From IMG/VR virus record IMGVR_UViG_3300045738_001722, positions 1 to 43,284 of that record: a stretch of DNA of 43,284 bases. One strand, 5' to 3'. The notes beneath the pieces are model-generated. The model was not told the DNA's origin and made no database searches. It saw nothing but the letters and a program-made list of their open reading frames with translations. The position numbers were made by a program, and so were the translations under genes. This document shows positions 17,030 to 40,290 of this stretch, one piece after another; positions within the stretch are counted from its first letter, which is position 1; every line of letters begins with the position of its first letter. Origin of the DNA: a virus.

Positions 17030-17333
17030 GATATTAGAAATCAATAATCTAGAAGAATTTATGAACGTTGTGCGCGCAAAAATGCAGAATCGCGCGCTGG
17101 TGATGATTCCGTTTTTACTTAGATGTGAAGAGCTATACGCGTCAGTGAATAGGGGCTGCGCGTGTACAAAAAAAAATAGGATGCAACATGCAGAGGCCTT
17201 TTTTAGAAAGTCAATCATTGAGCTATGTTTGAGAGACAAAAGCGACCTACTAAGTTTGCTGGGCGTGGGAGAAGATCATGATGAAGTTATCATAAAAAGT
17301 GGTGGCGCTATATTATTAACCATGAAAAAATGA
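17022..17333 (+). CDS. Hypothetical protein with CACTKK cluster
   Basis: 103 residues, helical, with a central GCACTKKNRMQHAEAFF segment that could bind a metal (CAC plus His). Similar short helical proteins with a GCxC.K...A...F pattern occur in phages. Overlaps the gene before by eight bases and the sulfotransferase gene by four (ATGA). Confidence 0.5.
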   Translation: MSRILEINNLEEFMNVVRAKMQNRALVMIPFLLRCEELYASVNRGCACTKKNRMQHAEAFFRKSIIELCLRDKSDLLSLLGVGEDHDEVIIKSGGAILLTMKK

Positions 17334-17971
17334 GACGACTTTTATTCATACACGTGCCCAAAACTGCGGGCACGTCTTTGGCCCAAGCCTTAGGGACAAT
17401 GAGCGAAAGATATAGACCAGAGGATCTAGAAAACGCAATAGAAATTCAAGGTGATGCGGACTTGACCTTTGGTCATGTAGATATAAATATGATAAGAGAA
17501 AAGGGGATAGTGTCGGAACAATTATGGCATGAATTTTATAAATTTTGTTTTGTAAGGAACCCTTGGGAAAGAATCGTTTCGCTATATGAATATCTTAATA
17601 GAGGAGAAAGTTTCGACACATTCGTTCTTGGTTTAGGCCGCGCCGATCCGATAGGTTTTTATAACGTAAAAGGGCTGAGCCAGTGTAGGCCTCAAACAGA
17701 TTGGATTCCTAGAGATATAGATTTTATCGGAAGATTTGAAAATTTAGAAAGCGATGTTAAAAAAATTTGTGAAATTACCGAGAGATCTATTATAGGAGGA
17801 AAGCTGCCGCACATACTTCCGGTGAATCCGAAGACAGGCAAAAGAAAAAAAAGGACAAAACATTATAGAGAATATTTCTCTGATTCTTCTTCAGGAAGAA
17901 TAGTAAAAGAAATTATAGAAGAGTTTTACCAGAAAGATTTTCAAAGATTTGATTATACATTTCTGAATTAG
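17330..17971 (+). CDS. Sulfotransferase (carbohydrate-type)
   Basis: 213 residues. HVPKTAGTS (8-16) is the 5'-phosphosulfate loop that binds PAPS, with Lys11 as the catalytic residue; FCFVRNPWERIVSLY is the 3'-phosphate-binding segment (R..S); DFIGRFENLESD follows as in the Sulfotransfer_2 family. These enzymes move sulfate from PAPS to a sugar hydroxyl. The short basic insert (KTGKRKKRTKHY) may touch an acidic glycan. With an APS-kinase-like gene at 39790 and another sulfotransferase-like gene at 37329, it suggests a phage sulfation pathway. Confidence 0.85.
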   Translation: MRRLLFIHVPKTAGTSLAQALGTMSERYRPEDLENAIEIQGDADLTFGHVDINMIREKGIVSEQLWHEFYKFCFVRNPWERIVSLYEYLNRGESFDTFVLGLGRADPIGFYNVKGLSQCRPQTDWIPRDIDFIGRFENLESDVKKICEITERSIIGGKLPHILPVNPKTGKRKKRTKHYREYFSDSSSGRIVKEIIEEFYQKDFQRFDYTFLN

Positions 17972-18054
17972 TTTGTTCGTCTATATGTCTATATTAGGTA
18001 GGTCATAATAATATTTATTAGATTATCGTGGCTCCCAAAAAGGATAATAATTAT

Positions 18055-18993
18055 ATGAAATTTTTAAGACTACCCCTTATCGTGGCGCTTTCTCTCAGTT
18101 ATGGCGCTTTTAGTGCAGAAAAAAAACAATCAACAGCAGAACACTTGCAAAACGTGTCTGTGACAATCAGATCGGAGGCTGCATTTTCTGCGGGAGAAGG
18201 TTCTGGGGTGATTTTTACCAGAAAAGATTCGAAAGGAAATTTAGTAAATTTTGTATGGACCGCCGCTCACGTGGTAGATAACATGCGCCTTACTAAGCGT
18301 GTACTCGTCAATGGCACATACAAAACCATAGTACACTTCAGAGACCCCGTAGTTATTAAGGAAATTCGTCAAAACGGCAGAACAGTTGGTCGTCTTCAAA
18401 TGGACGCGGAGGTATTGAAATATTCAGAGAGCGAAGACGGGCAAGATCTTGCGCTACTTCGTATTCGCAAGTTCAATTTCGTGACCGACAGCGTAGTGTT
18501 TTACCTTGATAAAGAACTTCCGCCGTTGGGCACGGACCTCTTGCATGTTGGCTCCTTATTGGGTCAATTTGGAGCAAACTCCATGACTTCAGGGATAATG
18601 TCTCAACACGGTAGAGTCCTTAAAAACTTAAACAAACATATATTCGACCAGACGACTTGTACAGCGTTTCCGGGCTCTAGTGGCGGCGGAGTATATTTAA
18701 AAAATGATGCCAGATATGTAGGGATGTTGGTGAGAGGGGCGGGAGAAGGGTTTAATTTAATCGTACCTGTTCGCAGGATGGTAGAATATTGCGAAAAACA
18801 CAAAATTATGTGGGCCCTAGACGCGAAGGTAGAAATGCCCACCGAGGAAGAGCTAAAGAAAATGCCCATAGAGAACACGCCGAAAGAAAAAGATGACGCC
18901 GAAAATGTAGAAAAAGAAGCGGCGAAGAAGATGTTTCCCTTCATGCTGCGTGTAATTTATCCCAAGGTGCTCATTATAAAAGGGGCCAAGTAA
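18055..18993 (+). CDS. Exported trypsin-like serine protease
   Basis: 312 residues from ATG 18055; a GTG at 18028 would add nine polar residues before a normal signal peptide and is less likely. The signal peptide (about 1-21) ends near AFSAEK. The catalytic triad is visible: His in VWTAAHVVD, Asp in GQDLALLRI and Ser in FPGSSGGGVY, the HtrA/trypsin order. No PDZ domain; the C-terminal 60 residues are Lys/Glu-rich. It should act in the periplasm. Targets could be host envelope proteins, or phage proteins cut for maturation. Confidence 0.85.
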   Translation: MKFLRLPLIVALSLSYGAFSAEKKQSTAEHLQNVSVTIRSEAAFSAGEGSGVIFTRKDSKGNLVNFVWTAAHVVDNMRLTKRVLVNGTYKTIVHFRDPVVIKEIRQNGRTVGRLQMDAEVLKYSESEDGQDLALLRIRKFNFVTDSVVFYLDKELPPLGTDLLHVGSLLGQFGANSMTSGIMSQHGRVLKNLNKHIFDQTTCTAFPGSSGGGVYLKNDARYVGMLVRGAGEGFNLIVPVRRMVEYCEKHKIMWALDAKVEMPTEEELKKMPIENTPKEKDDAENVEKEAAKKMFPFMLRVIYPKVLIIKGAK

Positions 18994-19046
18994 ATTACTT
19001 GTAACATTTGTATTTTTTGGGTGCCAAGGGGGGTGGAGACACGCCT

Positions 19047-19086
19047 AAGCGTAGCATGATTTTTTAATCCTCTGCTGCGCTTTTTC
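19047..19086 (+). terminator. Rho-independent terminator after the protease gene
   Basis: A ten-base-pair stem (AAGCGTAGCA / TGCTGCGCTT, one G-T pair) with a 16-base loop is followed by further T (five in a row from 19081). Confidence 0.6.
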
Positions 19087-19116
19087 CTTTCGTAGAGTAT
19101 TATGATTTTTTAAAGT

Positions 19117-19242
19117 AAAAAAAAACAGATTTTCCCCCCGCAGAAAAAAAAATCCTATAGTGGACGATATACCATTGAGCAGAAAGAAAAAAACCGAATT
19201 TTCCCCCCCGAGGGAAAGTCAATCTATAGTGGACGATATACC
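19117..19242 (+). repeat. Imperfect tandem duplication, 69-base unit
   Basis: CTATAGTGGACGATATACC occurs at 19155-19173 and again at 19224-19242, each preceded by an A-run, TTTTC and six or seven C. The offset of 69 bases keeps the reading frame, so the second copy adds 23 codons to the small basic protein at 19160. The homopolymer runs are prone to slippage. Confidence 0.7.
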
Positions 19243-19411
19243 CGAGTACGGCAAGCAGAAAAAATATTTCAAAACAGGAAAAGGTAAATCTGCGCTAAAA
19301 AAGGCGAGAAAGCGATATGACCGAAAAGACCCAGAACGACGAAGGAAACAGAAAAGAGATTATATGCGCAGAATCAGGGAAAGGGAAAAATATGGAGAAG
19401 AGCGAGCATAG
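19160..19411 (+). CDS. Small, very basic protein whose stop lies in a tRNA gene
   Basis: 83 residues from GTG 19160, the only plausible start after an in-frame stop. The first third repeats VDDIP through the 69-base duplication; the rest is dominated by Lys, Arg and Tyr (ARKRYDRKDPERRRKQKRDY). Such a protein could bind nucleic acid. Its TAG (19409-19411) is inside the acceptor stem of the tRNA-Val gene. Expression is uncertain. Confidence 0.45.
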   Translation: MDDIPLSRKKKTEFSPPRESQSIVDDIPEYGKQKKYFKTGKGKSALKKARKRYDRKDPERRRKQKRDYMRRIREREKYGEERA

Positions 19412-19476
19412 CTCAGCGGAAGAGCATCGCGTTTACACCGCGCAGGTCGGAGGTTCGAATCCTTCTGCTCGTACCA
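19402..19476 (+). tRNA. tRNA-Val (anticodon TAC), CCA encoded
   Basis: Acceptor stem GCGAGCA / TGCTCGT, D arm AGCTCAGCGGAAGAGC, anticodon loop TTTACAC (anticodon TAC) closed by four pairs CGCG/CGCG, T arm GGAGG-TTCGAAT-CCTTC, discriminator A and encoded CCA. The 27-43 pair is a mismatch. It reads GUA and GUG-type valine codons. Confidence 0.93.
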
Positions 19477-19484
19477 TTTCTGAC

Positions 19485-19919
19485 GTGCAGAGGGTCGCAA
19501 ACTTTTTCTCCAATGAGACCTATTTTAAAATTAAAAAATGTTTTAAAAAAACAGAGAGTACCGTGCTAAATTTATTTGGTAAGTCAACCATTGATAAATT
19601 AGACAAAACGCAGAAGACTATCCTCGGAGCGGTATTTGAGCAAAGACTAAGAAAAGCTTTCAATTTTAAGAGGGGACGCTTAGACTGCGTAATTGAGTCC
19701 GTAGACGTAGACGTCAAATTTAGCATAAAGGACTCATGGATGATACCTCCAGAATGCGTGGGTAAAGTGTGCGTCTTGGCGTCGTTGAGCTTTCGAGATG
19801 GGGGCTATGCTTTTGGAATATTGAACGTCAAAGAAATGTATCTGAATAAAGGCTCCAATAGAGATAAAAAAAGGACTATAAGTAAAAAATATTATAATAA
19901 GATAAAATGGATTCTATAA
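19485..19919 (+). CDS. NaeI-type restriction endonuclease domain
   Basis: 144 residues from GTG 19485. The same frame is open back to 19317, but only through the tRNA gene, so the longer start is rejected. The core pattern Glu52 ... Asp67 ... Asp76-Val-Lys78 has nearly the spacing of the NaeI active site (E70, D86, D95-C-K97), and VDVDVKFS...SWMIPPE and a late NRDKKRT match the family signatures. NaeI itself is about 317 residues with a second, topoisomerase-like DNA-binding domain; here only the nuclease domain is present. It may degrade host DNA or act as a repair or nicking enzyme. No methyltransferase partner beside it. Confidence 0.72.
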   Translation: MQRVANFFSNETYFKIKKCFKKTESTVLNLFGKSTIDKLDKTQKTILGAVFEQRLRKAFNFKRGRLDCVIESVDVDVKFSIKDSWMIPPECVGKVCVLASLSFRDGGYAFGILNVKEMYLNKGSNRDKKRTISKKYYNKIKWIL

Positions 19920-19937
19920 TATTAAAGGATTAGAAAA

Positions 19938-21182
19938 ATGGAAGAAAAAACAACACTCCCAGATGCTCAGATAAGCGAGGCGCAATTTACTCGAGAAAAT
20001 TACTCGCAATTCTTCGAATGTAGCGCTCTAAAAAAGGGAGAGCTAATGAACCGAATAAGCACTAGCACTATGTCTGAAGAATTTAGCGTTGAGCAAGAGC
20101 AACTTCATTTGCATAAGATAGAAGAGAAAAAAGAGAAGGACGGCCTACATATGCAGTTTATGGTGGCTAATCATGTTTTTAAATGTAAATTCATCAAATC
20201 AGGAAGCTTTGAGAACGATAAGCCGACGGCTCTACTATGTATAAAAGATAATCATAAATTATTGAATTATACTTTGAACAATATGAAGGTCTTTGATGTG
20301 GACCGATATTGTAACGTGCTAGTCATTGAAGATAGGCCCAATGAAGACGCGGGAGATATACAGAGGGTTACCGAGGAGTATGGGCACTCATATCTATCGG
20401 TAAACTATGATCAAGATTTTAATTTTTCAATGCTTAACAATGTAGGTGCCGCAGTATGTGACGCGCTGGGAAATAAAGAAATAGTTTTATGGAATTCTGA
20501 CGTGTGGGTGGCTGACGATTCAACATTTCCAGAGATTCTAAGGCTGCACGTAGAGAATAAAGCAGATATCAGCGGGGCCAAGTTGCTTTATCCAGATTTT
20601 GAATGGGAAGAAGATGGCGACAAAGACAAGGTGACGAGTCGAGACGTTTATTTCAAGGATAATAGCCACGATTTTAGAGGCACGGTTCAACATGGCGGCA
20701 TTATTTTTTCAAATGTTCCAATCGCAGGAAAATGGACATATATGCCCAACCATGACGACAGATTTGGAAAACCAGATGGTGCGCTATGCAATTCTGACAA
20801 GGGTATTTTGGCTGTGACGGGAGCCTTTATGATTATAAAACTTTCTTGGTATAGAAAGGTGGGAGGCTTAAATCCGAGTCTTGCTAGGGGCTTTCAAGAT
20901 ATAGATTTATGTTTGAGATCTGACCGAGTATTTTATTTTGGCAAAGACAAGTTTCTTTATCACGACGAAAGCGTATCAATTATTTTGGGAACCAGCACCG
21001 ATGATGAGAAAGTCAAAAAGCATCACGCCCAATTATTCGAGTGCGGCGTATTATGGCAGAAGCTTCACCCTTATGCGGGCTTTATGAAGGATGTCATATT
21101 TAAGAATGTAAACCCAGCTTCGGACGCGGTTAAAGACGAAATGCCAGCCGCAATGGCCGCGAAGAAAAAATATGGCGTTTAA
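19938..21182 (+). CDS. Glycosyltransferase family 2-like
   Basis: 414 residues. After an N-terminal extension of about 90 residues that is not part of the fold, the GT-A core shows VLVIEDRPNE, FSMLNNVGAAV, VLWNSDVWV (DxD position, with one Asp kept) and a C-terminal GFQDIDLCLR with LYHDESVS, the ED.DLxxR...H pattern of rhamnosyl-type GT2 enzymes. It probably transfers a sugar from an NDP or TDP donor with inversion. A GAGAA-free but A-rich leader with AAAGGATTAG precedes the ATG. The 3' end is 15 bases from the next RNA element. Confidence 0.82.
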   Translation: MEEKTTLPDAQISEAQFTRENYSQFFECSALKKGELMNRISTSTMSEEFSVEQEQLHLHKIEEKKEKDGLHMQFMVANHVFKCKFIKSGSFENDKPTALLCIKDNHKLLNYTLNNMKVFDVDRYCNVLVIEDRPNEDAGDIQRVTEEYGHSYLSVNYDQDFNFSMLNNVGAAVCDALGNKEIVLWNSDVWVADDSTFPEILRLHVENKADISGAKLLYPDFEWEEDGDKDKVTSRDVYFKDNSHDFRGTVQHGGIIFSNVPIAGKWTYMPNHDDRFGKPDGALCNSDKGILAVTGAFMIIKLSWYRKVGGLNPSLARGFQDIDLCLRSDRVFYFGKDKFLYHDESVSIILGTSTDDEKVKKHHAQLFECGVLWQKLHPYAGFMKDVIFKNVNPASDAVKDEMPAAMAAKKKYGV

Positions 21183-21183
21183 T

Positions 21184-21189
21184 GTGTAA
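21184..21189 (+). promoter_or_regulatory. GTGTAA-type motif before the structured RNA
   Basis: GTGTAATATATTTA lies directly after the GT2 stop codon and eight bases before the closing stem of the RNA at 21198. It is the only copy that precedes an RNA instead of a start codon. Confidence 0.35.
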
Positions 21190-21197
21190 TATATTTA

Positions 21198-21297
21198 GAG
21201 TTCAGCGTTTTGCGTACACGTTGCGCCTACTAGTGGCGCGAACAAAAGCTGAGTCGAGAGACGGCGGATACAGAGTTCTAGACCGGATGCTGAACTC
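21198..21297 (+). ncRNA. Small structured RNA candidate just upstream of tmRNA
   Basis: A perfect nine-base closing stem GAGTTCAGC / GCTGAACTC encloses 82 bases, inside which GCGCC-TACTAGT-GGCGC is a strong hairpin. A competing pairing (AGC.TTTTG with CAAAAGCT) uses the end of the closing stem, so two folds may alternate. It is not a tRNA: there is no T arm. It ends nine bases before the tmRNA and may be co-transcribed with it or be part of its processing region. No ORF. Confidence 0.5.
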
Positions 21298-21306
21298 GAA
21301 TTTTAT

Positions 21307-21776
21307 GGGGGCGTACTGGTTTCGATTTGGAATCTTACGCCAGATTGCAAGCAGAGGATGATGGTTGGCCTCTTAAAAAAACTATCAAAAACATATATGC
21401 CAACGATAGCGTTGACATGGAGATGGCTCTTTCTGTAGCCGAAGCTGATGAGGTTCTTGCCAAGTTCGGCTACGTTGCGGAGGAAGATCTCCAACTGGCG
21501 GTTTAAGTCCCGCCACGTCCTACTCTGGATGCTCGTTAAGGGGCTAGGGCGACGACAGCGAGCAAAAAACTAGGGCGGCTGTAACGCTAGTATAAAATGT
21601 GACTTCAAACTCGTGTAGGCGTCTAGCGTTTTGCGCTAGTCCCAGCTGCTTTTTGAGTGGCCCGGTTGGTTTATCAGTGACCTGCCATACACGAGATAAA
21701 CAACACTGGTTAAGCTTGTAGTATATCTGAGCCGATGGCTCCGAAGACGTGGGTTCGATTCCCACCGCCTCCACCA
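21307..21776 (+). ncRNA. ssrA: Transfer-messenger RNA (tmRNA), one-piece
   Basis: About 470 nt. The ends pair as a tRNA-like acceptor (GGGGGCG / CGCCTCC) with ACCA encoded; the T arm is GTGGG-TTCGATT-CCCAC. The 5' part has the conserved CTGGTTTCGA and GGTTGGCCTCTTAAAAAA segments found before the resume codon in bacterial tmRNAs. A tag reading frame starts at GCC 21399. Downstream are several inverted repeats consistent with pseudoknots 2-4. tmRNA with SmpB rescues stalled ribosomes and tags the nascent chain for proteolysis. It is longer than the usual 350-400 nt, mainly because of the tag. Confidence 0.93.
21399..21506 (+). other. tmRNA tag-peptide reading frame, 35 codons
   Basis: The resume codon GCC begins an A-N-D-S tag and the frame ends at TAA 21504-21506, coding 35 residues that finish DLQLAV. 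The AND opening and the LAV end are typical of tmRNA tags, but most bacterial tags are 8-15 residues. The extra middle part is predicted helical and acidic. Confidence 0.8.
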
Positions 21777-21805
21777 ATTTTAATTGTTTGTAGGTTGATG
21801 GTCGT

Positions 21806-21811
21806 GTGTAA
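21806..21811 (+). promoter_or_regulatory. GTGTAA-type motif
   Basis: GTGTAATATAATATGTT runs into the ATG at 21823, 11 bases after the motif; the gene is a paralogue of the one behind the copy at 3340. Confidence 0.45.
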
Positions 21812-21822
21812 TATAATATGTT

Positions 21823-21999
21823 ATGAAGAGCATAAGCGTCACGGGCTATCAAGTTAAAATTTATAATGATGGAGAAGTTAGAATTTTTTCTAAGGAGGAA
21901 GAGCTAGAAGAAGAAAGAATTCTAGTGATAGCCAAATATCTTTTTGACGAAGGATTTATAGAAGATGACGAAGAGATTTTTATAAATGTTGTTATTTAA
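21823..21999 (+). CDS. Small conserved protein, paralogue of the gene at 3107-3328
   Basis: 58 residues. It has SVTGYQVKIYNDG at the start and KYLFDEGFIEDD near the end, matching the order GYNVKI ... YLYDEGFVED of the 73-residue protein at 3107. The middle is a Glu-rich helix in place of the longer loop of the paralogue. The start follows a GTGTAA motif. Function unknown. Confidence 0.6.
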   Translation: MKSISVTGYQVKIYNDGEVRIFSKEEELEEERILVIAKYLFDEGFIEDDEEIFINVVI

Positions 22000-22182
22000 A
22001 TGCAAATGAGCGCGGGAAAAGGTGATCATCCAAGAAGCTGTTTCTCCAAGAGGTTTAGGGAGAACTATAAGGCTATAAATTGGGGCAGAGATGCTCAAGA
22101 GGTCTTCAAAAAATGTTGTTCTCCCGAAGGCTGTGGGTGCGCCAGAAAGTCTCAGAATAAAAAACAGCGCCCAACTAGCTGA
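22000..22182 (+). CDS. Small conserved phage protein (GKGDxPR family)
   Basis: 60 residues, or 58 from ATG 22006. The opening MSAGKGDHPR and the following ENYKAINWG resemble a very widespread small protein of T4-like and other tailed phages (GKGDKPR ... NYD.IFG). A Cys-rich segment (KCCSPEGCGCA) at the end could bind zinc. Its function is not established. It is followed by a terminator. Confidence 0.65.
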   Translation: MQMSAGKGDHPRSCFSKRFRENYKAINWGRDAQEVFKKCCSPEGCGCARKSQNKKQRPTS

Positions 22183-22198
22183 GTCACTTCAACACAAA

Positions 22199-22230
22199 AC
22201 CCATCATGCTGCGGTGTGGTGGGTTTTTTT
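22199..22230 (+). terminator. Rho-independent terminator
   Basis: Stem ACCCATCA / TGGTGGGT (eight pairs, one G-T) with a ten-base loop, then seven T. Confidence 0.8.
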
Positions 22231-22258
22231 GATCTTTTCGTATATTTTTACGTATTAT
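22229..22258 (+). promoter_or_regulatory. Sigma70-type promoter directly behind a terminator
   Basis: TTGATC, 18 bases, TATTAT, with the ATG at 22265 only six bases after the -10 box, so the start of transcription falls on or next to the start codon. Confidence 0.6.
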
Positions 22259-22264
22259 AATTGT

Positions 22265-22435
22265 ATGAAACCTTTGAATTTATTAAATCAAATTATAGAA
22301 CATGCAGAAGCGGAAGACGCCAAGCAAAAATGGAAAAAACTAAGCGAAGGCGAGGGTGAAGAGGCGATAGGAGAAAGCTGGACAATTTTTCACCTTAAGA
22401 GACTAAAGGAATTAATGGAAAATGAAGAAGCCTAA
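22265..22435 (+). CDS. Small acidic helical protein
   Basis: 56 residues from ATG 22265. The frame is open to 22091, but that would cross the terminator and promoter, so the internal ATG is chosen. The product is a Glu/Lys-rich double helix (NQIIEHAEAEDAKQKWKKL, then FHLKRLKELMEN). No family recognised. Confidence 0.6.
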   Translation: MKPLNLLNQIIEHAEAEDAKQKWKKLSEGEGEEAIGESWTIFHLKRLKELMENEEA

Positions 22436-22589
22436 GAAAAGAAAAAAGAAATATTATTTGATTTTAAATAGGTCTAACGGATATAGATACGGAGCTTTTC
22501 CGCATACCCCAGAGGGACTAGAGATGGCAGAAAAATATATGAAAAAAATCAATACTACCGATGAAGAATTATATATTACAGAAAGGTGA
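22422..22589 (+). CDS. Small basic protein
   Basis: 55 residues, overlapping the preceding gene by 14 bases. It starts with a Lys/Arg-rich run (KKPKKRKKK), then a strand-turn-strand (YYLILNRSNGYRYG) and a helix. Function unknown. Confidence 0.5.
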   Translation: MKKPKKRKKKYYLILNRSNGYRYGAFPHTPEGLEMAEKYMKKINTTDEELYITER

Positions 22590-22594
22590 CGGCA

Positions 22595-23131
22595 GTGGCT
22601 AAAAAGAAGAAAAAAGCGGCGACCCCAAAGGGCGGCAAAGTTGGAAAACTTTACGAGAAGACCAGAGCGGATCTCATGCCTACCAAAAAGGGCAAAAAGG
22701 ACACTGGTAAACGTGCACGCGATTGTCCGGCCATGCAACATGAGACGGCTCATGATCGGCCTTTCGAGGCTGGAAATCCCTATTTCAATCCAACTCGCCC
22801 AGAGGACGTTGGGTCTAGGCCAAGCGTGGGCATGGACGACGCAAAAAGAAAAAAATTGGGAATCGGTACGCCATGCGACTTTGGAAGCTGGACAGTCCCT
22901 AATCGTCGCCTAAATCCGAATAATAAAGACGACGCCAAAATAATTAAAAGAGGAATGGATTCACTTTACACGAACCAGACCAATCCCTCTTGCCCCAAAG
23001 GCAATATTAACAAAAAAAAATATAACGAAAATTGTAAAGATATAGGTTTAGGGAAAAAAAAGAGCAAGAAACAAGAAGAGGAAGAAGGCTTTGAAAGAAA
23101 CGGTAACAAGTTAAAAAAGAAATATGGCTGA
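22595..23131 (+). CDS. Lys-rich hypothetical protein
   Basis: 178 residues from GTG 22595, which has AGGTGA eight bases upstream; an alternative GTG at 22586 overlaps the preceding stop. Highly basic at both ends (AKKKKKAATPKGG and KKKSKKQEEEE). The middle has Pro/Asn-rich segments (FEAGNPYFNPTRPEDVGSR, NRRLNPNNKDD) and four Cys. It could be a nucleic-acid-binding or internal virion protein. No family recognised. Overlaps the next gene by eight bases. Confidence 0.55.
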   Translation: MAKKKKKAATPKGGKVGKLYEKTRADLMPTKKGKKDTGKRARDCPAMQHETAHDRPFEAGNPYFNPTRPEDVGSRPSVGMDDAKRKKLGIGTPCDFGSWTVPNRRLNPNNKDDAKIIKRGMDSLYTNQTNPSCPKGNINKKKYNENCKDIGLGKKKSKKQEEEEGFERNGNKLKKKYG

Positions 23132-23477
23132 TATTCGAGCAATATTGACAAAGCCAAACACCAAAAGCAGAAAGGTAAACACCAGCCCCTTTATTTGTGA
23201 CGGGTGCAGCCTAGCTTACTCTAGAAAGCACTACCAAGTATTATATGATGGCAAAAAATTAGTATATTTTCTGCTTTATCCCGACTGGCAGAAGAAAAGC
23301 AGAAAGTTTTTTCTCTGTCACGATTGTTTTTACAAGAGTGCCATGCAAATTTGTGAAGAATTTGAGCTTCCAGTTTTATCAATAGGGCTTAAGCAAGGGA
23401 GGAAGTGGCACACCCTAGAATTTTACTACAGCGAGTATAGTGGGCCTTGCGACCCAACAGATTTAGATGTATTTTAG
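23124..23477 (+). CDS. Zinc-finger-like protein
   Basis: 117 residues. Two Cys pairs (CDGC at about 25-28 and CHDC at about 72-75) separated by a strand-rich 43-residue stretch could form one zinc site. A basic start and the aromatic C-terminal half follow. Role unknown; zinc-ribbon nucleic-acid binding is one option. Confidence 0.55.
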   Translation: MADIRAILTKPNTKSRKVNTSPFICDGCSLAYSRKHYQVLYDGKKLVYFLLYPDWQKKSRKFFLCHDCFYKSAMQICEEFELPVLSIGLKQGRKWHTLEFYYSEYSGPCDPTDLDVF

Positions 23478-23507
23478 TTGACAAAAATAGAAAAAATATG
23501 TTAATAT
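23478..23507 (+). promoter_or_regulatory. Sigma70-type promoter
   Basis: TTGACA, 18 bases, TAATAT; ATG nine bases after the -10 box at 23517. The -35 box begins directly after the stop codon of the preceding gene. Confidence 0.65.
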
Positions 23508-23516
23508 AAAGAAGTT

Positions 23517-24434: not shown

Positions 24435-24443
24435 ATAAAAATC

Positions 24444-29080: not shown

Positions 29081-29863
29081 ATGCAAAAAAAGAAAACAAT
29101 TTCAAAGAAGAAGAAGACGTCACCCGTCGCCTCCTCGAAGAGGAAAGCGGAGGTGGCAAAACTAGTAGCTGAAACCGAAAAAGCAACGGCAGAAACTAGG
29201 AAAGTTGAAGCCGAAGCGGGCAAAGCAGAATTAGAATTAGAAAAAGCTCAAGCCAGCAGAATGAAAGAGCTGCTTTCTGACGAGGAAAATTATTTGTACA
29301 GATTTTCAAAGGATGTTAATTCCAATTCGGTGGAGTCGTGCATGAGCAAACTTACCCAATGGCACCGTAGAGCTCCAGAGTGTGATATAGAAATAGTATT
29401 TTCTTCGCCGGGAGGAAGCATCATTGACGGGTTTGAATTATTTGATTTTATTCAAGATTTGAGAAATCAAGGCCACAAAATAACAACCGGCTCTTTGGGA
29501 ATGGCCGCGTCTATGGCTGGCATTCTTTTGCAAGCGGGTGACGTGAGGTGGATCGGGCATCAAAGTTGGATGATGATTCACAGGGCGGCATTCGGCGCGA
29601 TCGGAAAAACTTTTGAAATTGAGGACGAGGTAAAACTCGTAAAGAGAATTGAAGGCAGAATCGTCGACATTTTCACTTCGAGATCCAAATTAACCACGCA
29701 GAGAATTAAGAGAAATTGGGACAGAAAAGATTGGTGGATTGATGCGGACGAGTGCTTAGAGCTAGGGCTAGTAGACCAAATTAACGCCAAGATGCCAGAG
29801 CACAAATCAAACGTGAAGAGGAGGAATACGAAGGGTACAAAAGCGAAGAGGAGATCAAAATGA
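29081..29863 (+). CDS. ClpP-like serine protease with N-terminal coiled coil
   Basis: 260 residues. A basic, Ala/Glu-rich N-terminal extension (about 1-60, predicted coiled coil) precedes a ClpP-fold domain: FSSPGGSIIDG (oxyanion-hole Gly pair), GMAASMAG (nucleophile Ser144), SWMMIHRAA (His167) and RKDWWIDADECLELGLVD (Asp217, then the family C-terminus). The triad is complete. ClpP-like proteases in phages often process prohead proteins, but no capsid gene is close. It overlaps the next gene by four bases and ends basic. Confidence 0.85.
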   Translation: MQKKKTISKKKKTSPVASSKRKAEVAKLVAETEKATAETRKVEAEAGKAELELEKAQASRMKELLSDEENYLYRFSKDVNSNSVESCMSKLTQWHRRAPECDIEIVFSSPGGSIIDGFELFDFIQDLRNQGHKITTGSLGMAASMAGILLQAGDVRWIGHQSWMMIHRAAFGAIGKTFEIEDEVKLVKRIEGRIVDIFTSRSKLTTQRIKRNWDRKDWWIDADECLELGLVDQINAKMPEHKSNVKRRNTKGTKAKRRSK

Positions 29864-33335: not shown

Positions 33336-33336
33336 A

Positions 33337-33873: not shown

Positions 33874-33877
33874 AATT

Positions 33878-34102: not shown

Positions 34103-34962
34103 CAGAATATGCCCAGCATTGGGATTGGGAACGTTTACACAAAGAAGCAATGAACACGCACAAACAAAAAAAAGCGACCGTCAAAATTGGCCTACCTCAG
34201 AGACCGAGAGGCAACGAGGCGCAGAAGGTCGGTTCCCAAGCGTGGAACTATGGGGGGTCTTCAGAAGAGTCCCAAGCAGTAAAAAATAAAAAAAATACGA
34301 TAAGAGTTGACATAGCGAAAGGAAAAAATATGGAACAACAAGGAAAAGAGACAATTCGAGTGGCCGTAGGAGCGACCCAGCAAGTAGCCCCCGCAACGGC
34401 TCGTGCTGCGCCTCAACCACCGCCTCAGAAAAAGCCCGATGTTGTTCCAAACGCCGTGCAGAAACTCGTTCAAGGAGAACATGTGGGGCCAGTAACGGCC
34501 CAGCAGCTCCCTGTCGCTGCGCCGCCTATAGAGAAGGCGCTGGCAGGGCAGGCTCCCGTGGCTGCTCCCGTGCCCCCCCCCGTGGGTGCTCCCGTAGGCC
34601 CTCCCGTGGCTCCTCCGGTGGCCATAAGTGAGGTGGAACAATTAAGAAAGGAAATTGAAGAATTAAAATCAGGGGAACGACCGCACCCGCTGCTTCCAGA
34701 TCAAGGAGTAGGCACTTCCCCCGAAGCTCCCGCTCCTCAGGCACAAGCGGTTGCCGGAGAGCCGCCGTCGCCAGACGAAGGCGAGAAAAAGCCTACGCAA
34801 GCAATTCTTGTCGACGATAAGCGGCTCTGGGGGGAATTTGCGGAGAATTTAGCTGCACGTTTACACGTTTTAACTAGAAAAAGCCAATGGGTAGACTTTG
34901 GCTTAGCCTTCGTGGCCATGTTGGTCAGCATAGCGCTTTTAATTGTTTTAATGAGAATATAA
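34099..34962 (+). CDS. Pro/Ala/Val-rich tail-anchored membrane protein
   Basis: 287 residues. A basic N-terminal domain of about 75 residues is followed by a long proline-rich linker (about 95-215) with repeats of the type APV-PPPVGAPVGPPVA, a short Glu-rich helix (about 178-190), and a C-terminal membrane helix (about 263-285) with only two residues beyond it. It is thus tail-anchored, with the proline-rich part in the cytoplasm. A stiff spacer could link a membrane and a virion or replication component. The high GC of the linker reflects Pro and Ala. Confidence 0.6.
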   Translation: MTEYAQHWDWERLHKEAMNTHKQKKATVKIGLPQRPRGNEAQKVGSQAWNYGGSSEESQAVKNKKNTIRVDIAKGKNMEQQGKETIRVAVGATQQVAPATARAAPQPPPQKKPDVVPNAVQKLVQGEHVGPVTAQQLPVAAPPIEKALAGQAPVAAPVPPPVGAPVGPPVAPPVAISEVEQLRKEIEELKSGERPHPLLPDQGVGTSPEAPAPQAQAVAGEPPSPDEGEKKPTQAILVDDKRLWGEFAENLAARLHVLTRKSQWVDFGLAFVAMLVSIALLIVLMRI

Positions 34963-34977
34963 ATATATAATAATATT

Positions 34978-35310
34978 ATGAATGCAGTAGATAGAAAAAA
35001 TAGAAAAATAGAAGAGGGAGATATCGTAGCTTTCGATGTGCCAGTTTTTTACGGAACAGAAGAGCACAAAACTAAGATGTGGGACATTTTCTGGGGAAAA
35101 GCGGTGCAGGATGGCGTAATGGTCGATTTCTGCCCGATAACTCAAAAAAATAATGTCGTATATAAATTCCCTGAGGAGCCGTCGGAGCTTTTAATAATCA
35201 GAAAGCACGTGGATGGCGGGCTGCCGAACCAAATGAGTGACGGTGCCGACGCCCCCCCAGTTGAGATAGACCCCGAAGTAGTGATGAGAAGGAAAGAGGG
35301 CGAGGAATAG
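34978..35310 (+). CDS. Hypothetical protein
   Basis: 110 residues. An N-terminal strand-rich domain (EEGDIVAFDVPVF, KAVQDGVMVDFC) resembles a small beta-barrel or OB-like fold, then an acidic tail with PPVEIDPEVV. ATG at 34978 follows an AT-rich leader. No family recognised. Confidence 0.5.
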   Translation: MNAVDRKNRKIEEGDIVAFDVPVFYGTEEHKTKMWDIFWGKAVQDGVMVDFCPITQKNNVVYKFPEEPSELLIIRKHVDGGLPNQMSDGADAPPVEIDPEVVMRRKEGEE

Positions 35311-35314
35311 GTCG

Positions 35315-35977
35315 ATGAAAGGAATAGAGGAACTAATAGAAAAGATGGACAGGCCCCCGCTTCTCATTGGTAAGGGGCCGAGCTTCGCTCTAATAAAAGA
35401 AATGTCGTTGGAAAGTTGGACGACGATTGCTTTAAATCACGCGATTAGAAAAACCAAGGCTAATCTGTGCAGTATCATCGATATAGATGTAGTCAAAGAT
35501 TTGGGAGAAACACTTTACGAAAATGCGGAGAATGTTTGCCTCCCATCATTCCCCCATATAAATTTTCAATACTCAGAAAAATCTCTCTTTCGCTTTCTGG
35601 CAGAATACCCAGTCCTGATGAAGCTAGAAAACGAGGGGCGACTTTACACATATCACTTGAATAACTGCGGGTGGTGGCGGAACGATCCCAAGATAAAAAA
35701 TCTTTGTAGAGTTTACAAAATTGGAGTCAATAATGGAGATACGTTTCTGGAAGTATTGGCAGCCAATGGTCTAAAAAATGTATACAGCATAGGCGTTGAT
35801 GGGGGCAAAAGCTATGATCCTAATTTTTTTGATTTAAAACCGTTGACAAATGGAAGAGAAACGTTTTCTGATCAAGACGTCAATTTTGAAGCAATCGAAC
35901 GAGAACACGGATGCAAGCTTATTCGAATACCTTGGGCTGCGGGACGCAATTGGGACCTCGAAGAGCTAGTGGATTAG
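35315..35977 (+). CDS. DUF115/MptE-like Rossmann protein (possible glycosyltransferase)
   Basis: 220 residues. LLIGKGPSFALIKEM is the nucleotide-binding-type loop of the DUF115 family (6-hydroxymethylpterin diphosphokinase MptE-like, related to sialyltransferase-type GT42 folds). Later VYSIGVDGGKSYDP and DQDVNFEAIEREHG match the second half of that family. In bacterial cell surface loci such proteins attach sugars or link glycans to flagellin. It stands 1 base before tRNA-Gly. Its neighbours in this region include a methyltransferase and sulfotransferase. Confidence 0.65.
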   Translation: MKGIEELIEKMDRPPLLIGKGPSFALIKEMSLESWTTIALNHAIRKTKANLCSIIDIDVVKDLGETLYENAENVCLPSFPHINFQYSEKSLFRFLAEYPVLMKLENEGRLYTYHLNNCGWWRNDPKIKNLCRVYKIGVNNGDTFLEVLAANGLKNVYSIGVDGGKSYDPNFFDLKPLTNGRETFSDQDVNFEAIEREHGCKLIRIPWAAGRNWDLEELVD

Positions 35978-35978
35978 C

Positions 35979-36052
35979 GCGAGTGTCGTATAACGGTATT
36001 ACCCCAGCCTTCCAAGCTGATGACGCGGGTTCGACTCCCGCCACTCGTTCCA
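35979..36052 (+). tRNA. tRNA-Gly (anticodon TCC), CCA encoded
   Basis: Acceptor GCGAGTG / CACTCGT, anticodon loop CTTCCAA closed by CAGC/GCTG, T arm with GCGGG-TTCGACT-CCCGC, discriminator T and CCA. It reads GGA glycine codons. The gene begins one base after the stop codon of the preceding gene. Confidence 0.93.
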
Positions 36053-36055
36053 TTC

Positions 36056-36132
36056 GGGGAAATAGCTCAATTGGATAGAGCAACGGTCTTCTAAACCGTA
36101 GGTTATGGGTTCGAGTCCCATTTTCCCTGCCA
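36056..36132 (+). tRNA. tRNA-Arg (anticodon TCT), CCA encoded
   Basis: Acceptor GGGGAAA / TTTCCCT, D arm AGCTCAATTGGATAGAGC, anticodon loop CTTCTAA closed by ACGGT/ACCGT, T arm ATGGG-TTCGAGT-CCCAT, discriminator G and CCA. It reads AGA and AGG, codons that are common in the phage genes here but rare in many hosts. Confidence 0.94.
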
Positions 36133-36147
36133 GTTTAGTAAATAATG

Positions 36148-36153
36148 GTGTAA
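36148..36153 (+). promoter_or_regulatory. GTGTAA-type motif after the tRNA pair
   Basis: GTGTAATTTAAAATATG precedes the ATG at 36162, eight bases between motif and start codon. Confidence 0.45.
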
Positions 36154-36161
36154 TTTAAAAT

Positions 36162-36521
36162 ATGAAAATTATTATGACGAGTAAGGGAATAGAGGGAGAA
36201 ATAGACTTCTCTGACCAAATTAAGCAGGCTGCTGCCGACGAACTGGCTGGATATCCGCCAAATTGTAATAAAGGCTACGAAGCGAAAGACGGAAAGTGCG
36301 TCAAGATCGTAGAGGACAAGGCGAAGGATAAGGGCGAGAAGGACAGCTCCGACAAGAAAAAGAACGGCGACAAAAAGAGCGGCGACAAAAAGAGCGGCGA
36401 CAAAAAGAGCGGCGACAAAAAGAACGACGACAAAAAGAACGGCGACGAAAAGAACGGCGACGAAAAAGGCAAAGACGGTAAGAAGCTCCCGCCGTGGCTA
36501 AACAAAAAGAAAAAGAAGTAA
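36162..36521 (+). CDS. Basic/acidic repeat protein (DKKxG repeats)
   Basis: 119 residues. A short N-terminal domain (about 1-50) contains two Cys (NCNKGYEAKDGKC), then about eight copies of the five-residue unit DKKSG or DKKNG, and a short C-terminal GKKLPPWLNKKKKK. The repeat is highly charged and disordered. Proteins with such tails can bind nucleic acid or serve as flexible spacers. No family recognised. The gene follows the tRNA pair and a GTGTAA motif. Confidence 0.6.
   Translation: MKIIMTSKGIEGEIDFSDQIKQAAADELAGYPPNCNKGYEAKDGKCVKIVEDKAKDKGEKDSSDKKKNGDKKSGDKKSGDKKSGDKKNDDKKNGDEKNGDEKGKDGKKLPPWLNKKKKK
36351..36473 (+). repeat. Tandem 15-base repeat encoding DKKSG/DKKNG
   Basis: Units GACAAAAAGAGCGGC and close variants start at 36369, 36384, 36399, 36414, 36429, 36444 and 36459, after a longer 18-base unit at 36351. 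The perfect periodicity suggests recent expansion by slippage. Confidence 0.9.
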
Positions 36522-36583
36522 AGTGCGAGCTTTGTGGAATAAATTTCGGCACTGGTGCTGCAAGGTCGGGCTATGTAATCTAG
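36494..36583 (+). CDS. Possible 29-residue CxxC microprotein
   Basis: GTG 36494 to TAG 36583, overlapping the repeat gene in another frame. The product has CELCGINFGTG, a zinc-ribbon-like half knuckle. It has no strong ribosome-binding site; low confidence that it is expressed. Confidence 0.25.
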   Translation: MAKQKEKEVKCELCGINFGTGAARSGYVI

Positions 36584-36598
36584 ACACTTGCAAGTGTC
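36583..36598. promoter_or_regulatory. 16-base perfect palindrome GACACTTGCAAGTGTC
   Basis: A perfect 16-base inverted repeat with no spacer and no T-tract after it, in the 125-base gap before the methyltransferase gene. It has the form of an operator for a dimeric DNA-binding protein. Confidence 0.5.
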
Positions 36599-36646
36599 GT
36601 TGTCACAAAAGATAAATATAAGAAGCTTCGTTAGAGTCTATCTTGC

Positions 36647-37345
36647 ATGAGCGATATAGAACTCAACAATAATCTCTTCAGCCAAGCCGTCGAAACGGTT
36701 TTAACAGAAAATCCCCAAATAGAGGAGATTATAGAAACCGGAACCCATAGAGGCACGGGGTCCACAGTAGTTTGGGCAATGACGGGGCTACCGGTGAAAA
36801 CCATCGAAGTTCAGCGAGTGTTCCACGAAGAAGCGAAACGAAATCTTCAAAATTTTAGTAATGTAGAATTATATCTTGGTTCAAGTCTTCCATATACCAA
36901 GATGGAAAAGTTTATTCGAGAAAGCGAAGACTACTACTCGTCCGCATACAAGAAGAATATTGGCTGTGAAATTGATATTTATGGATCGGCGGTTAATTTC
37001 TACATAAATGAAATCAATGGGGGGGGATTTGCGGGCGGATCACAACATTTTTTTGAAGGACGGCCGGAGTCAGAAAATCTTTTGCCGGATCTCATAAATA
37101 ACGAGAAGAATCAATTAATATTTTTAGATTCTGCTGGGGGAGTGGGATTTCTTGAGTATTTAGAGGTTATGTCTATGCGGCAAGAATATCTTACAAAGAA
37201 AATCCTTTTCTTAGACGATACAAATCATGTCAAACATCATAGGTCTGTTGAAGATTTAGAAAAGCGGGGATATACAGTCACCGAAACCGGAGACGGCAGG
37301 TCTGCTTATTGTAATTTTATACAGCACCATGACGAAACCAGATAA
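36647..37345 (+). CDS. Class I methyltransferase-like protein
   Basis: 232 residues. IEEIIETGTHRGTGSTVVWA is a motif-I-type loop seen in the Methyltransf_24/cephalosporin-hydroxylase-like group, VKTIEVQ ends the second strand with an acidic residue, and IFLDSAGGVGFLEYLEVM is the matching motif-IV region. It probably methylates a sugar. It overlaps the sulfotransferase-like gene by 17 bases, suggesting they act together on one glycan. Confidence 0.72.
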   Translation: MSDIELNNNLFSQAVETVLTENPQIEEIIETGTHRGTGSTVVWAMTGLPVKTIEVQRVFHEEAKRNLQNFSNVELYLGSSLPYTKMEKFIRESEDYYSSAYKKNIGCEIDIYGSAVNFYINEINGGGFAGGSQHFFEGRPESENLLPDLINNEKNQLIFLDSAGGVGFLEYLEVMSMRQEYLTKKILFLDDTNHVKHHRSVEDLEKRGYTVTETGDGRSAYCNFIQHHDETR

Positions 37346-37889
37346 AATTTTAATTGGTGGCACGGGTAGAGCTGGGACCTCTGTTTTGATGGCAATACTT
37401 TCCTATTGCGGAATAAATACGGGCTATGAAAAGGGCGCTTATATGCGAGTGGGCAAGAGCAAGGCGGAAGCGGGTTTGGAAGATTGTGATTACGCCGCGC
37501 TTGTAATTAAACAACCGAAGGAATTATCTGAAAATATACCCCAATTCGATGAGGCTTTTAATATAAGACATTTTATTATTCCATTTAGAAATATAGACGA
37601 GGCTACCTACTCCAGAACGAATAGGGGCGAAGCGGAGGGCGGGCTAACTCCGAATCAATTAGGGGTTATTTGCCAGCCAACAGAACAGAAAGATATTTTG
37701 CTGTGGCGCTTGGGTAAAATGTTTAACGACCTCACCGAGCATAACGTGCCGTATACAGTGATTCATTTTCCTAGATTTGTAAACGATAAATCTTACTTAT
37801 ATGAGAAATTAAAACCAATTTTTCCAGAACTGGACCTTAAAGAGCTTGAAGAATGCTATGAACTATTTGTACATGAAAAAGATAAATAA
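37329..37889 (+). CDS. Sulfotransferase-like P-loop protein
   Basis: 186 residues. GGTGRAGTSVLM (10-21) is the phosphate-binding loop of the group of PAPS sulfotransferases that use GTGRSGTS/T instead of PKTAGTS. RHFIIPFRNIDEATYSR can supply the 3'-phosphate-binding Arg and Ser. The remaining helical part is like sulfotransferase-family proteins in marine phages. A related P-loop kinase is the alternative. Coupled to the methyltransferase gene; it ends before a new promoter. Confidence 0.65.
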   Translation: MTKPDKILIGGTGRAGTSVLMAILSYCGINTGYEKGAYMRVGKSKAEAGLEDCDYAALVIKQPKELSENIPQFDEAFNIRHFIIPFRNIDEATYSRTNRGEAEGGLTPNQLGVICQPTEQKDILLWRLGKMFNDLTEHNVPYTVIHFPRFVNDKSYLYEKLKPIFPELDLKELEECYELFVHEKDK

Positions 37890-37919
37890 TGAATTAGGAC
37901 CAGCAAGAACATTAAGGTG

Positions 37920-37948
37920 TTGACAGAAAAGGCAGTTTCTGTTAGACT
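37920..37948 (+). promoter_or_regulatory. Sigma70-type promoter
   Basis: TTGACA, 17 bases, TAGACT, 27 bases before the ATG at 37976, with AAAGG as ribosome-binding site. Confidence 0.65.
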
Positions 37949-37975
37949 AGAATAGCCTAGAAAGGTACAATAAAG

Positions 37976-38179
37976 ATGCACACAGAAGAAGAAGAAAGAA
38001 AGATTACGCTCGACCACATGATTGACGAGAAGTTCGGAGAGTTATTTTTTCTGGCTAAAGACGAGTTCGACATAAAGAACAACTCGCCAGAAGAACAAAA
38101 GCTTTATGACACGCTAGAGAGATTCAAAGATCTTCTAAAAAGAAAATGCAAGCAGCACTTTCAAAGTGACGAGGGATAA
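37976..38179 (+). CDS. Small acidic helical protein
   Basis: 67 residues, helical and charged (HMIDEKFGELFFLAKDEF; LYDTLERFKDLLKRK). It is the first gene of a unit that includes the TolQ/TolR-like pair. No family recognised. Confidence 0.55.
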   Translation: MHTEEEERKITLDHMIDEKFGELFFLAKDEFDIKNNSPEEQKLYDTLERFKDLLKRKCKQHFQSDEG

Positions 38180-38193
38180 AAATTAATTAAAAT

Positions 38194-38673
38194 ATGAAAA
38201 CTTTTACTAAATGGTTCCTGCTCAACGCCATACTGCTTACGGGCATTTTTTTTGCTGAAACTCGTGGCGTAGTTTCGTTAATGGTTAAAGGCGACATTAG
38301 TCATTTGACGATAGTAATTATGACCCTGTACGTTCTTGTCTCTGGCTTGGTAGGCAAATTGTGCTATCAAGCCGACAGGGCAGATGGAAATATGGTTAAA
38401 GATACAGAGAAAAGAGCCGCGTTAGCACAACGCGCTGAAGTGGGGTGGTTTGCGGCAGAACACTTTTTTTCTCTCGGCTTGTTGGGGACAGTTTTTGGGC
38501 TGTGCGTTGCCACATCGACTAGCCTGAACGAAGGGACAGAGATAAACGACATTGTATCCGGACTTAAAGTAGGCCTGAATACTGCGTTTTATACCACTAT
38601 TTGCGGCATTCTATTCAGTTTGGCGTTACAGACTCAGCTGATGATTTTGAGATTTAAATTGGAGCAGGAATGA
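38194..38673 (+). CDS. MotA/TolQ/ExbB-like proton-channel protein
   Basis: 159 residues, with four predicted membrane helices (about 8-22, 38-57, 88-105 and 125-148). The third contains GLLGTVFGL and the fourth GLNTAFYTTICGILFSLAL; both match the TolQ/ExbB signature (G.LGTV.G and L.TT..G), where Thr residues line the proton path. The family forms pentamers around a TolR/ExbD dimer in the inner membrane and converts the proton gradient into mechanical work. The gene overlaps the TolR-like gene by four bases. Confidence 0.8.
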   Translation: MKTFTKWFLLNAILLTGIFFAETRGVVSLMVKGDISHLTIVIMTLYVLVSGLVGKLCYQADRADGNMVKDTEKRAALAQRAEVGWFAAEHFFSLGLLGTVFGLCVATSTSLNEGTEINDIVSGLKVGLNTAFYTTICGILFSLALQTQLMILRFKLEQE

Positions 38674-39272
38674 TTAATAAAGGATATAAGAAATTTTTTT
38701 CATTTAGGCCGTTCATTGACGTGCTTTTTTGCTGCCTATTGATGTTGGTTGCTATTCTTTTTTTACTTAAGACAGAAGAAGAGAAAACAAAAATGCGTCC
38801 ACCAAATGTATTATACAAAGTTGTTCTTACTTGGAATGGTGAAAGCGCAGACGATTTGGATCTATATGTTCAATCGGCTTCGGGGCACATTGTTAGCTTC
38901 AACAACAGAGAGGGCGGACAGGGCAGCCTAATTAGTTTGGATCACGACGCGCTAGGTCGAAGGAATAATTCCTTAGAAAAGGGGGTGGAGGGCCTAGTAG
39001 TGGCTTTTCACGAAGAAGTAGTATCATTTAGGGGAGTGGTAGAGGGGGAAAATATTGTTACTGTGCACGTTTATTCTAAAAAAGATGAGGAGTCAATAGA
39101 GGCTACCATTAAGCTGGTAAAAATAAAGCCCTTTAAAGAGTTAATTATGAAGAGTAGAATTTTCAACGAAACGGGAGAAGAGAGAACGGCCTTTCGTTTT
39201 AAAACAGACAAGACCGGCCAAGTAATCGAAATAAATGAATTACCAGCGAATTTAATTAAACCATTAGAATGA
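38670..39272 (+). CDS. ExbD/TolR-like protein with YfaP/DUF2135-like periplasmic domain
   Basis: 200 residues. A single N-terminal membrane helix has FRPFIDVLFCCLLML, in which the Asp matches the essential membrane Asp of ExbD/TolR (PLIDVVL). After a short linker the periplasmic domain begins VVLTWNGESADDLDLYVQ, similar to the (L/V)TWD..DVDLHV strand of the YfaP/DUF2135 beta-sandwich; most TolR proteins have a different fold here. The usual peptidoglycan- or TonB-binding sequence is absent. It may transmit force to a surface or wall target. Overlaps both neighbouring genes. Confidence 0.72.
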   Translation: MINKGYKKFFSFRPFIDVLFCCLLMLVAILFLLKTEEEKTKMRPPNVLYKVVLTWNGESADDLDLYVQSASGHIVSFNNREGGQGSLISLDHDALGRRNNSLEKGVEGLVVAFHEEVVSFRGVVEGENIVTVHVYSKKDEESIEATIKLVKIKPFKELIMKSRIFNETGEERTAFRFKTDKTGQVIEINELPANLIKPLE

Positions 39273-39385
39273 AGACCGAACGCATCAAAGATTTGTTTTT
39301 GCTGGCCTTTTGGTCTATAGCTTATTTTTTAAAAGCGATAGTCGAGATCCCCTATTTATGGATGAAATCACTGTTTAATAAATAA
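39269..39385 (+). CDS. Small membrane protein after the motor pair
   Basis: 38 residues, from ATG 39269 overlapping the previous TGA. A charged start is followed by a hydrophobic, aromatic helix (about 9-33). Two bases before the next gene. It could be an accessory subunit of the motor. Confidence 0.5.
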   Translation: MKTERIKDLFLLAFWSIAYFLKAIVEIPYLWMKSLFNK

Positions 39386-39387
39386 TT

Positions 39388-39630
39388 ATGACAGAAATAC
39401 AATATGCCGAAGAAGCGTTAAAGGCTCAATATGAGTTTTTTCATATAATGACGATGATAAAATGGATTTTACTGTCCATATCGATAGCGATTTGGGCCTT
39501 AGTGTTAAAACAAGTACCTGTTTGGTGGAATGATCGCAAGAAAAAAAAGAGGTTAGGACAAATGAGAAAAGACCTAAGCTCAGCAGAGAGGCCGACGACA
39601 ATGGAAGAATTCAGAAGTGAATGGGATTAA
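39388..39630 (+). CDS. Small membrane protein
   Basis: 80 residues: a short amphipathic N-terminus, a membrane helix (about 22-42, with WILLSISIAIWALVL), then a strongly basic segment (RKKKKRLGQMRK) and a polar end. N-terminus probably outside by the positive-inside rule. Function unknown. Confidence 0.55.
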   Translation: MTEIQYAEEALKAQYEFFHIMTMIKWILLSISIAIWALVLKQVPVWWNDRKKKKRLGQMRKDLSSAERPTTMEEFRSEWD

Positions 39631-39648
39631 AATAAAAAGGAAAATATT

Positions 39649-39786
39649 ATGGCAAATAAAGAAAAAAGAAAAAAAGAAAAGAAAAAAGCCCCCCAATCAA
39701 CCCCCGAAGAAAAAAGAAAAGAGAGACAAAGAAAAAAAAGAGAAAGGAAAAAGACAAAAAAGACGAAAAAGAAAAGGGATAGATAA
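39649..39786 (+). CDS. Extremely basic 45-residue protein
   Basis: 45 residues, of which well over half are Lys or Arg, in runs such as KEKRKKEKKK and KKTKKTKKKR. The gene is short and A-rich, with AAAGG eight bases upstream as ribosome-binding site. It could be a nucleic-acid condenser or only a low-complexity frame. Confidence 0.45.
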   Translation: MANKEKRKKEKKKAPQSTPEEKRKERQRKKRERKKTKKTKKKRDR

Positions 39787-39789
39787 ATA

Positions 39790-40290
39790 ATGATTTATAT
39801 ACTATACGGACAACCAGCTTCCGGCAAAACCAGCTTAGGTAAGTTGCTGGCTGAACGCCTAGATACTCCATTCATTATTGATGGTGATGAGTTTAGAGAT
39901 ATGTTTGCAAATAATAATTACGGCAGAGAAGGGCGTGAAGAAAATATTAGAAACGCAAATGCCGTAGCGACTTACCTAAATAAGAAAGGCAAAGACGGCA
40001 ACTGGAAAGCTGTTTATATTAGCGACGAAGAAAACACTTGGAAAAGCCATCCCGTAAACAAAGAAACCCATGTGGTTATGTGCTTGGTAAATCCTTATGA
40101 TCATTTAAGAAAAGAGCTGAAGAATAATAATCAGAATGAAGTCTCAGAAGTATATTTGTTTTCCAGCAGGGAACTAAGGAAAGAATATCATGTAAAAGAT
40201 TTCGAAAAAGGTTATGCAGATTGCGTTTTAAACACAGATCAAAAAACAGAAGAAAGTTGGGAACAGCTACAGTCTTTATTAAATTTATGA
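39790..40290 (+). CDS. APS-kinase-like protein (CysC family)
   Basis: 166 residues. The P-loop is GQPASGKTS (7-15); IIDGDEFRDMF (about 30-39) and YGREGREENIRNANAVA (about 44-60) match the DGD..R and F...DR.ENIRR..EVA motifs of adenylylsulfate kinase. The distal half (FEKGYADCVLNTDQ) also resembles the DF..P..PDLVLDTD segment, while the central part is divergent. APS kinase makes PAPS from APS and ATP, the sulfate donor of sulfotransferases. ATP sulfurylase would come from the host. A related small kinase is the alternative. Confidence 0.72.
   Translation: MIYILYGQPASGKTSLGKLLAERLDTPFIIDGDEFRDMFANNNYGREGREENIRNANAVATYLNKKGKDGNWKAVYISDEENTWKSHPVNKETHVVMCLVNPYDHLRKELKNNNQNEVSEVYLFSSRELRKEYHVKDFEKGYADCVLNTDQKTEESWEQLQSLLNL

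Follow-up and report, generated by a model that had tools for sequence, protein, structure and literature searches.

A lidless CysC-type kinase, predicted to make PAPS, and exchangeable sulfotransferase genes in a virus of bacteria

Introduction

Viral cysC genes are usually filed under sulfur assimilation. Viruses of the Challenger Deep, for example, encode short CysC proteins that are distinct from the prokaryotic ones in a phylogenetic tree; the passages on these genes frame them as sulfate assimilation and leave loss of the lid unmentioned, and a search of that text gave no mention of sulfotransferase (PMC9529941). Viral sulfotransferases have been reported as well (PMC8290583, PMC10829341, PMC10580990). 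Passages of the last of these papers name phage members of the Sulfotransfer_2/3 families, i.e. the enzyme family found here, in Stenotrophomonas phage DLP6, Pelagibacter phage Mosig, Synechococcus phage S-SRM01 and OM43 phages; there they are not described alongside an APS kinase, and their function in phages is stated to be unclear. Genes of both kinds are known from viruses; the novelty here lies in the lidless variant of the kinase and in its linkage to sulfotransferases. Our text searches of open-licence papers found no report of a phage-encoded supply of PAPS to sulfotransferases.

Another described system that bears comparison is the cytidine diphosphoramidate kinase of C. jejuni, which we take to be an APSK-like enzyme. 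PMC6429109 cites Taylor and Raushel 2018 for this enzyme, and the likeness is that a kinase phosphorylates a nucleotide conjugate at its 3'-OH in the course of a sugar modification.

The object of this study is a linear IMG/VR contig of 43,284 bases from a virus of bacteria, probably a fragment of a larger genome; the whole of this stretch is referred to as the window.

Results and Discussion

Gene content of the window

The features of the window are collected in Table 1. The initial annotation had drawn attention to two sulfotransferases and an APS kinase as parts of a possible sulfation pathway. All three open reading frames are present with the motifs quoted for them, all on the plus strand, and it is correct that they do not form one operon. 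The background of glycosyltransferases and methyltransferases is thinner than in that account. The figure of at least four glycosyltransferases is generous, since only the GT8 gene passes Pfam, the GT1-like gene remains under the cut-off and the genes at 19938 and 35315 have no Pfam family match. Methyltransferases at 2039 and 5609 pass Pfam but the one at 36647 fails. Many clade members share the metabolic genes found between 25122 and 31426, and the phage also encodes a signal peptidase I, a trypsin-like protease and ClpP.

Table 1. Positions of the features in the window, and of NMNAT-like genes at other loci
Feature	Position	Strand	Length, evidence or remark
ST1, PAPS-dependent sulfotransferase (Sulfotransfer_2)	17330..17971	+	213 aa; PF03567, phrog_3347
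ST2, probable divergent sulfotransferase	37329..37889	+	186 aa; motifs, weak model; no family match
Lidless CysC-type kinase, predicted APS kinase	39790..40290	+	166 aa; PF01583, model, residues, tree
Possible SAM-dependent methyltransferase	36647..37345	+	no family match; 17 bp overlap with ST2
Variable cargo, possibly glycan-related (by eye only)	35315..35977	+	no family match
MotA/TolQ/ExbB-like, conserved kinase neighbour	38194..38673	+	PF01618 22.8 bits, just under cut-off of 22.9
TolR/ExbD-like (by eye), conserved kinase neighbour	38670..39272	+	synteny in relatives
Putative GT2-type glycosyltransferase (by eye), variable cargo	19938..21182	+	no family match
GT1-like glycosyltransferase, widespread in clade	11164..12243	-	PF00534 20.1 bits, under cut-off
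GT8-family glycosyltransferase, variable cargo	6112..6843	-	PF01501 25.3 bits, cut-off 24.3
GMP reductase	25122		metabolic gene
VOC/glyoxalase	26946		metabolic gene
Aldehyde dehydrogenase	27448		metabolic gene
HAD-like (by eye)	29860		metabolic gene
Saccharopine dehydrogenase-like	30290		metabolic gene
Signal peptidase I	4761-5309
Trypsin-like protease	18028-18993
ClpP	29081-29863
NMNAT-like, L026	8533-8931
NMNAT-like, L252	10819-11211
NMNAT-like, L230	6148-6918
NMNAT-like, G005	105165-105497

The two sulfotransferase candidates

The identification of ST1 as a sulfotransferase held up well. Its Pfam score is far above the cut-off (67.7 bits against PF03567, cut-off 22), it matches phrog_3347 in PHROGs, and it carries both the 5'-PSB motif HVPKTAGTS and the 3'-PB motif FVRNPWERIVSLY. 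By these marks it is a clear PAPS-dependent sulfotransferase of the Sulfotransfer_2 family. Phage G007 has a syntenic relative at 14568 with 43% identity, the only ST1-like gene at this site among the six phages compared; the other relatives have distant family members only. INPHARED gave five weak matches with ST1.

ST2 is a more difficult case. The protein has a GGTGRAGTS P-loop and a 3'-PB-like motif (PFRNIDEATYSR), and has no match over the cut-off in Pfam, PHROGs or NCBIfam; a search of G000 with PF13469 was likewise empty, as was a search of INPHARED with ST2. Searches of PDB sequences gave nothing usable for either ST1 or ST2. In IMG/VR a single relative was found, even with an alignment as the query, namely a protein of 36% identity in the phage L012/G011. 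It retains both the P-loop and the RNxxxxxxS-like motif, it sits inside a cluster of sulfotransferases, and it adjoins a methyltransferase-like gene, as ST2 itself adjoins 36647. The structural model of ST2, for which two sequences were used, is of low quality (pLDDT 65). Its top folds in the PDB are mostly sulfotransferases with bound PAP or PAPS, the best at E 5e-3 and TMq 0.45.

Taken together, the fold matches and the relative in L012 point to ST2 as a probable divergent sulfotransferase. The related P-loop noted at first is as far as sequence alone goes, and the further step to a sulfotransferase is a tentative one, given the weak model and fold matches. It is possible, if clearly less probable, that ST2 is some other P-loop protein, for instance a nucleotide kinase, which would leave the window with one sulfotransferase: there is no family match, the model is of low confidence, no PDB fold reaches E < 0.001, and the fold matches include UMP/CMP and adenylate kinases. 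Against this stand the predominance of PAP/PAPS sulfotransferases among the top folds and the conservation of both motifs in a relative that is placed among several other sulfotransferases.

The kinase lacks most of the lid

The kinase at 39790 scores 31.0 bits against PF01583 (cut-off 21.1; 21.2 bits in a whole-genome search), and the match covers profile positions 6-74 of 152, i.e. the N-terminal half only. The NCBIfam test for apsK (TIGR00455) failed, with 24.1 bits against a cut-off of 138.7, and the top NCBIfam score went to PRK05541 (39.8 bits, cut-off 127), a group which presumably includes the C. jejuni kinase. INPHARED has no match to the protein. In the alignment most of the lid is gone, and the KGLY...GEIKNFTGI segment is absent from the clade of the window, from the viral L026 type and from the bacterial relatives alike. 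In M. tuberculosis CysC the lid segment holds the catalytic Lys562 and the adenine-stacking Phe576 (PMC4373884). The window kinase and most clade members also have an insertion of 20-odd residues after the central helix, another difference from the canonical enzyme.

The protein shares with CysC the P-loop, the DGD motif, the R36/R49/N52 APS site, the NPY strand motif and the fold. The residues D33, R36, Y44, R49, N52, P102, Y103 and R107 are invariant in all clade proteins aligned (21 out of 21), so that, apart from the lid, the APS site (D, R, F/Y, R, N, P; roles taken from PMC4373884) is kept in full. The AlphaFold model (pLDDT 88) has APS kinases as its top five folds in the PDB, and gluconate kinases are among the further matches. 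AAA+ ATPases came first when PDB sequences were searched with the kinase alone; we rejected them as P-loop background because a profile of eight sequences put APS kinases first.

Lidless relatives in bacteria

A genome scan found relatives of the kinase (27-37% identity) in marine Flavobacteriales, other Bacteroidota and Verrucomicrobia. At least 18 Bacteroidota loci have the lidless gene beside CysD and CysN, whose identities were confirmed, and in 17 out of 18 genomes searched (MAGs of unstated completeness) it is the sole match to PF01583 at E up to 1e-6. The expectation that the APS-kinase label would fail, as only half of the profile was matched, was overturned by this context. In the tree, the clade of the window falls inside a lidless group with the short CysC proteins of Bacteroidota and Verrucomicrobia, apart from canonical CysC, with support of 100/100; the tree is midpoint-rooted, so the monophyly of the lidless branch depends on the root. 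The stem branch of the clade is long (2.1 changes per column). Fusion to a HAD-type domain is frequent among the lidless CysC proteins of Flavobacteriales (L207, L214, L216 and others).

Judging from alignment and tree, we conclude that the kinase fails the canonical lid and equivalog tests, yet belongs to a lidless branch of CysC. The lidless clan, the cysD/cysN neighbours, the APS-site residues, the fold and the linkage to sulfotransferases make it most likely that 39790 is a functional APS kinase, as initially named, albeit an atypical one. If the lidless enzyme does work, it would show that the lid is dispensable, though it is held essential in the enzymes studied.

Kinases and sulfotransferases in other phages

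Viral CysC loci of the lidless and the canonical type were scanned separately (80 loci each, near-copies then removed). Lidless CysC had 17 sulfotransferases within 4 kb as opposed to 1 at 4-10 kb (p 3e-5), and canonical CysC had 14 as opposed to 2 (p 4e-4). Before the removal of copies, a sulfotransferase was present within 4 kb in 36 out of 80 lidless loci, directly adjacent in 19, a count that takes in one group (c18) which Pfam does not recognise; in the control, 3 out of 80 NrdB loci had one within 3 kb. Kinases of both types thus lie beside sulfotransferases far beyond chance, and phage modules of PAPS synthesis plus sulfotransferase are real. Individual phages outside the clade of the window display the pairing: in L030 the sulfotransferase gene overlaps that of a canonical CysC by 4 bp, and L026 has two sulfotransferases with a lidless CysC. 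This linkage points to sulfation, not assimilation, as the process that many viral cysC genes serve.

Five or six sulfotransferase-like genes, the sole relative of ST2 among them, occur in the phage L012/G011 together with nucleotide-sugar genes, glycosyltransferases and a canonical CysC that is fused to DUF2061. Positions 4129-18746 of this 94-kb contig look like a surface-glycan cluster, with several sulfotransferases, CysC, rmlC-, dehydratase-, aminotransferase- and acyltransferase-like genes and glycosyltransferases. By analogy with the neighbourhoods in L012 and L026, sulfation of a glycan is plausible for the window phage; the suggested blocking of adsorption by competitors found no support.

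The clade of the window

Seven related virus contigs encode close relatives of the kinase, at 62-74% identity. Among 45 sampled contigs of the clade or its sister (at least 40 kb each), 21, about half, have the kinase, seven of these 21 having been found via the kinase itself. The gene remains near the 38194/38670 pair in each of the six relatives whose genes were compared one by one, and in G007 the 38670-type gene overlaps it by 4 bp. This MotA/ExbB-like and TolR-like pair (38194-39272 in the window) adjoins the kinase across the clade. The GT1-like gene at 11164 is found in five of the six relatives, and ST2, 36647, 35315, 19938 and 6112 are absent from all six.

Sulfotransfer_2 was found in 10 out of 21 kinase-positive and 5 out of 24 kinase-negative contigs (p 0.11), a count on contigs that are fragments and on this family alone, Sulfotransfer_3 having been searched in a smaller set; within the clade proper the value is p 0.48. 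What co-occurrence there is can mostly be explained by the length of the contigs, and we rejected it as proof of coupling, as it is not significant and is confounded by that length. The 158-kb contig G032 has the kinase and no Sulfotransfer_2. The link between kinase and sulfotransferase in the window's own clade is weak, and the proposal that the three genes make up one pathway in this phage, for which co-occurrence in related phages was the suggested check, is not supported: the kinase recurs across the clade, and ST1 and ST2 are variable cargo. G032 also encodes a terminase, a DnaB-like helicase and a DNA polymerase; a taxonomy search found no close cultured relative, NrdB being at most 46% identical to those of cultured phages.

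What the genes may do

With moderate confidence, we propose that the window encodes a lidless APS kinase, which would convert APS to PAPS, together with at least one and probably two PAPS-dependent sulfotransferases, the kinase being a recurrent gene of the clade and the sulfotransferases exchangeable cargo. The host CysDN would make APS, the phage kinase would turn this into PAPS, and ST1 (and ST2) would spend it on an acceptor, probably the cell surface, the virion or a small molecule. Several findings count against this explanation, namely the missing lid segment with the counterparts of Lys562 and Phe576, the long stem branch and the insertion, as well as the weak co-occurrence in the clade, the case of G032 and the weak support for ST2.

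The kinase might also be a real APS kinase that serves sulfur assimilation or the general supply of PAPS, the sulfotransferases being unrelated cargo that draws on PAPS of the host. We consider this unlikely, even though the kinase recurs in the clade with varying sulfotransferases and no significant co-occurrence, and passages of PMC9529941 interpret viral cysC in this way: the annotated genes of the window gave no sign of a PAPS reductase, and the same branch of kinases adjoins sulfotransferases in other phages. It is more improbable still that the substrate of 39790 is another small molecule, or a nucleotide conjugate other than APS that it phosphorylates at the 3'-OH in the manner of the C. 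jejuni kinase (passages of PMC6429109 provide the precedent of 3'-phospho-CDP-phosphoramidate), since for all its PRK05541 score, long stem branch, lost lid and insertion it has invariant phosphosulfate-binding arginines, and its bacterial relatives sit with CysD/CysN, the enzyme that makes APS.

An additional gene accompanies the lidless kinases of other phages. Downstream of lidless viral CysC, 42 out of 44 non-redundant loci have a nucleotidyltransferase of about 130 aa that resembles NMNAT; near canonical viral CysC it occurs in 18 out of 61. It was not found in the window, and within the clade it was found in G005 only. We speculate, with considerable doubt, that in several phage lineages it forms a donor-activation module with lidless CysC and an enzyme of the sulfotransferase fold, in which its role may be that of a minimal ATP sulfurylase or the synthesis of some other nucleotide conjugate, so that sulfate activation would be independent of the host. 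In one Bacteroidota MAG the NMNAT-like nucleotidyltransferase is fused to CysC.
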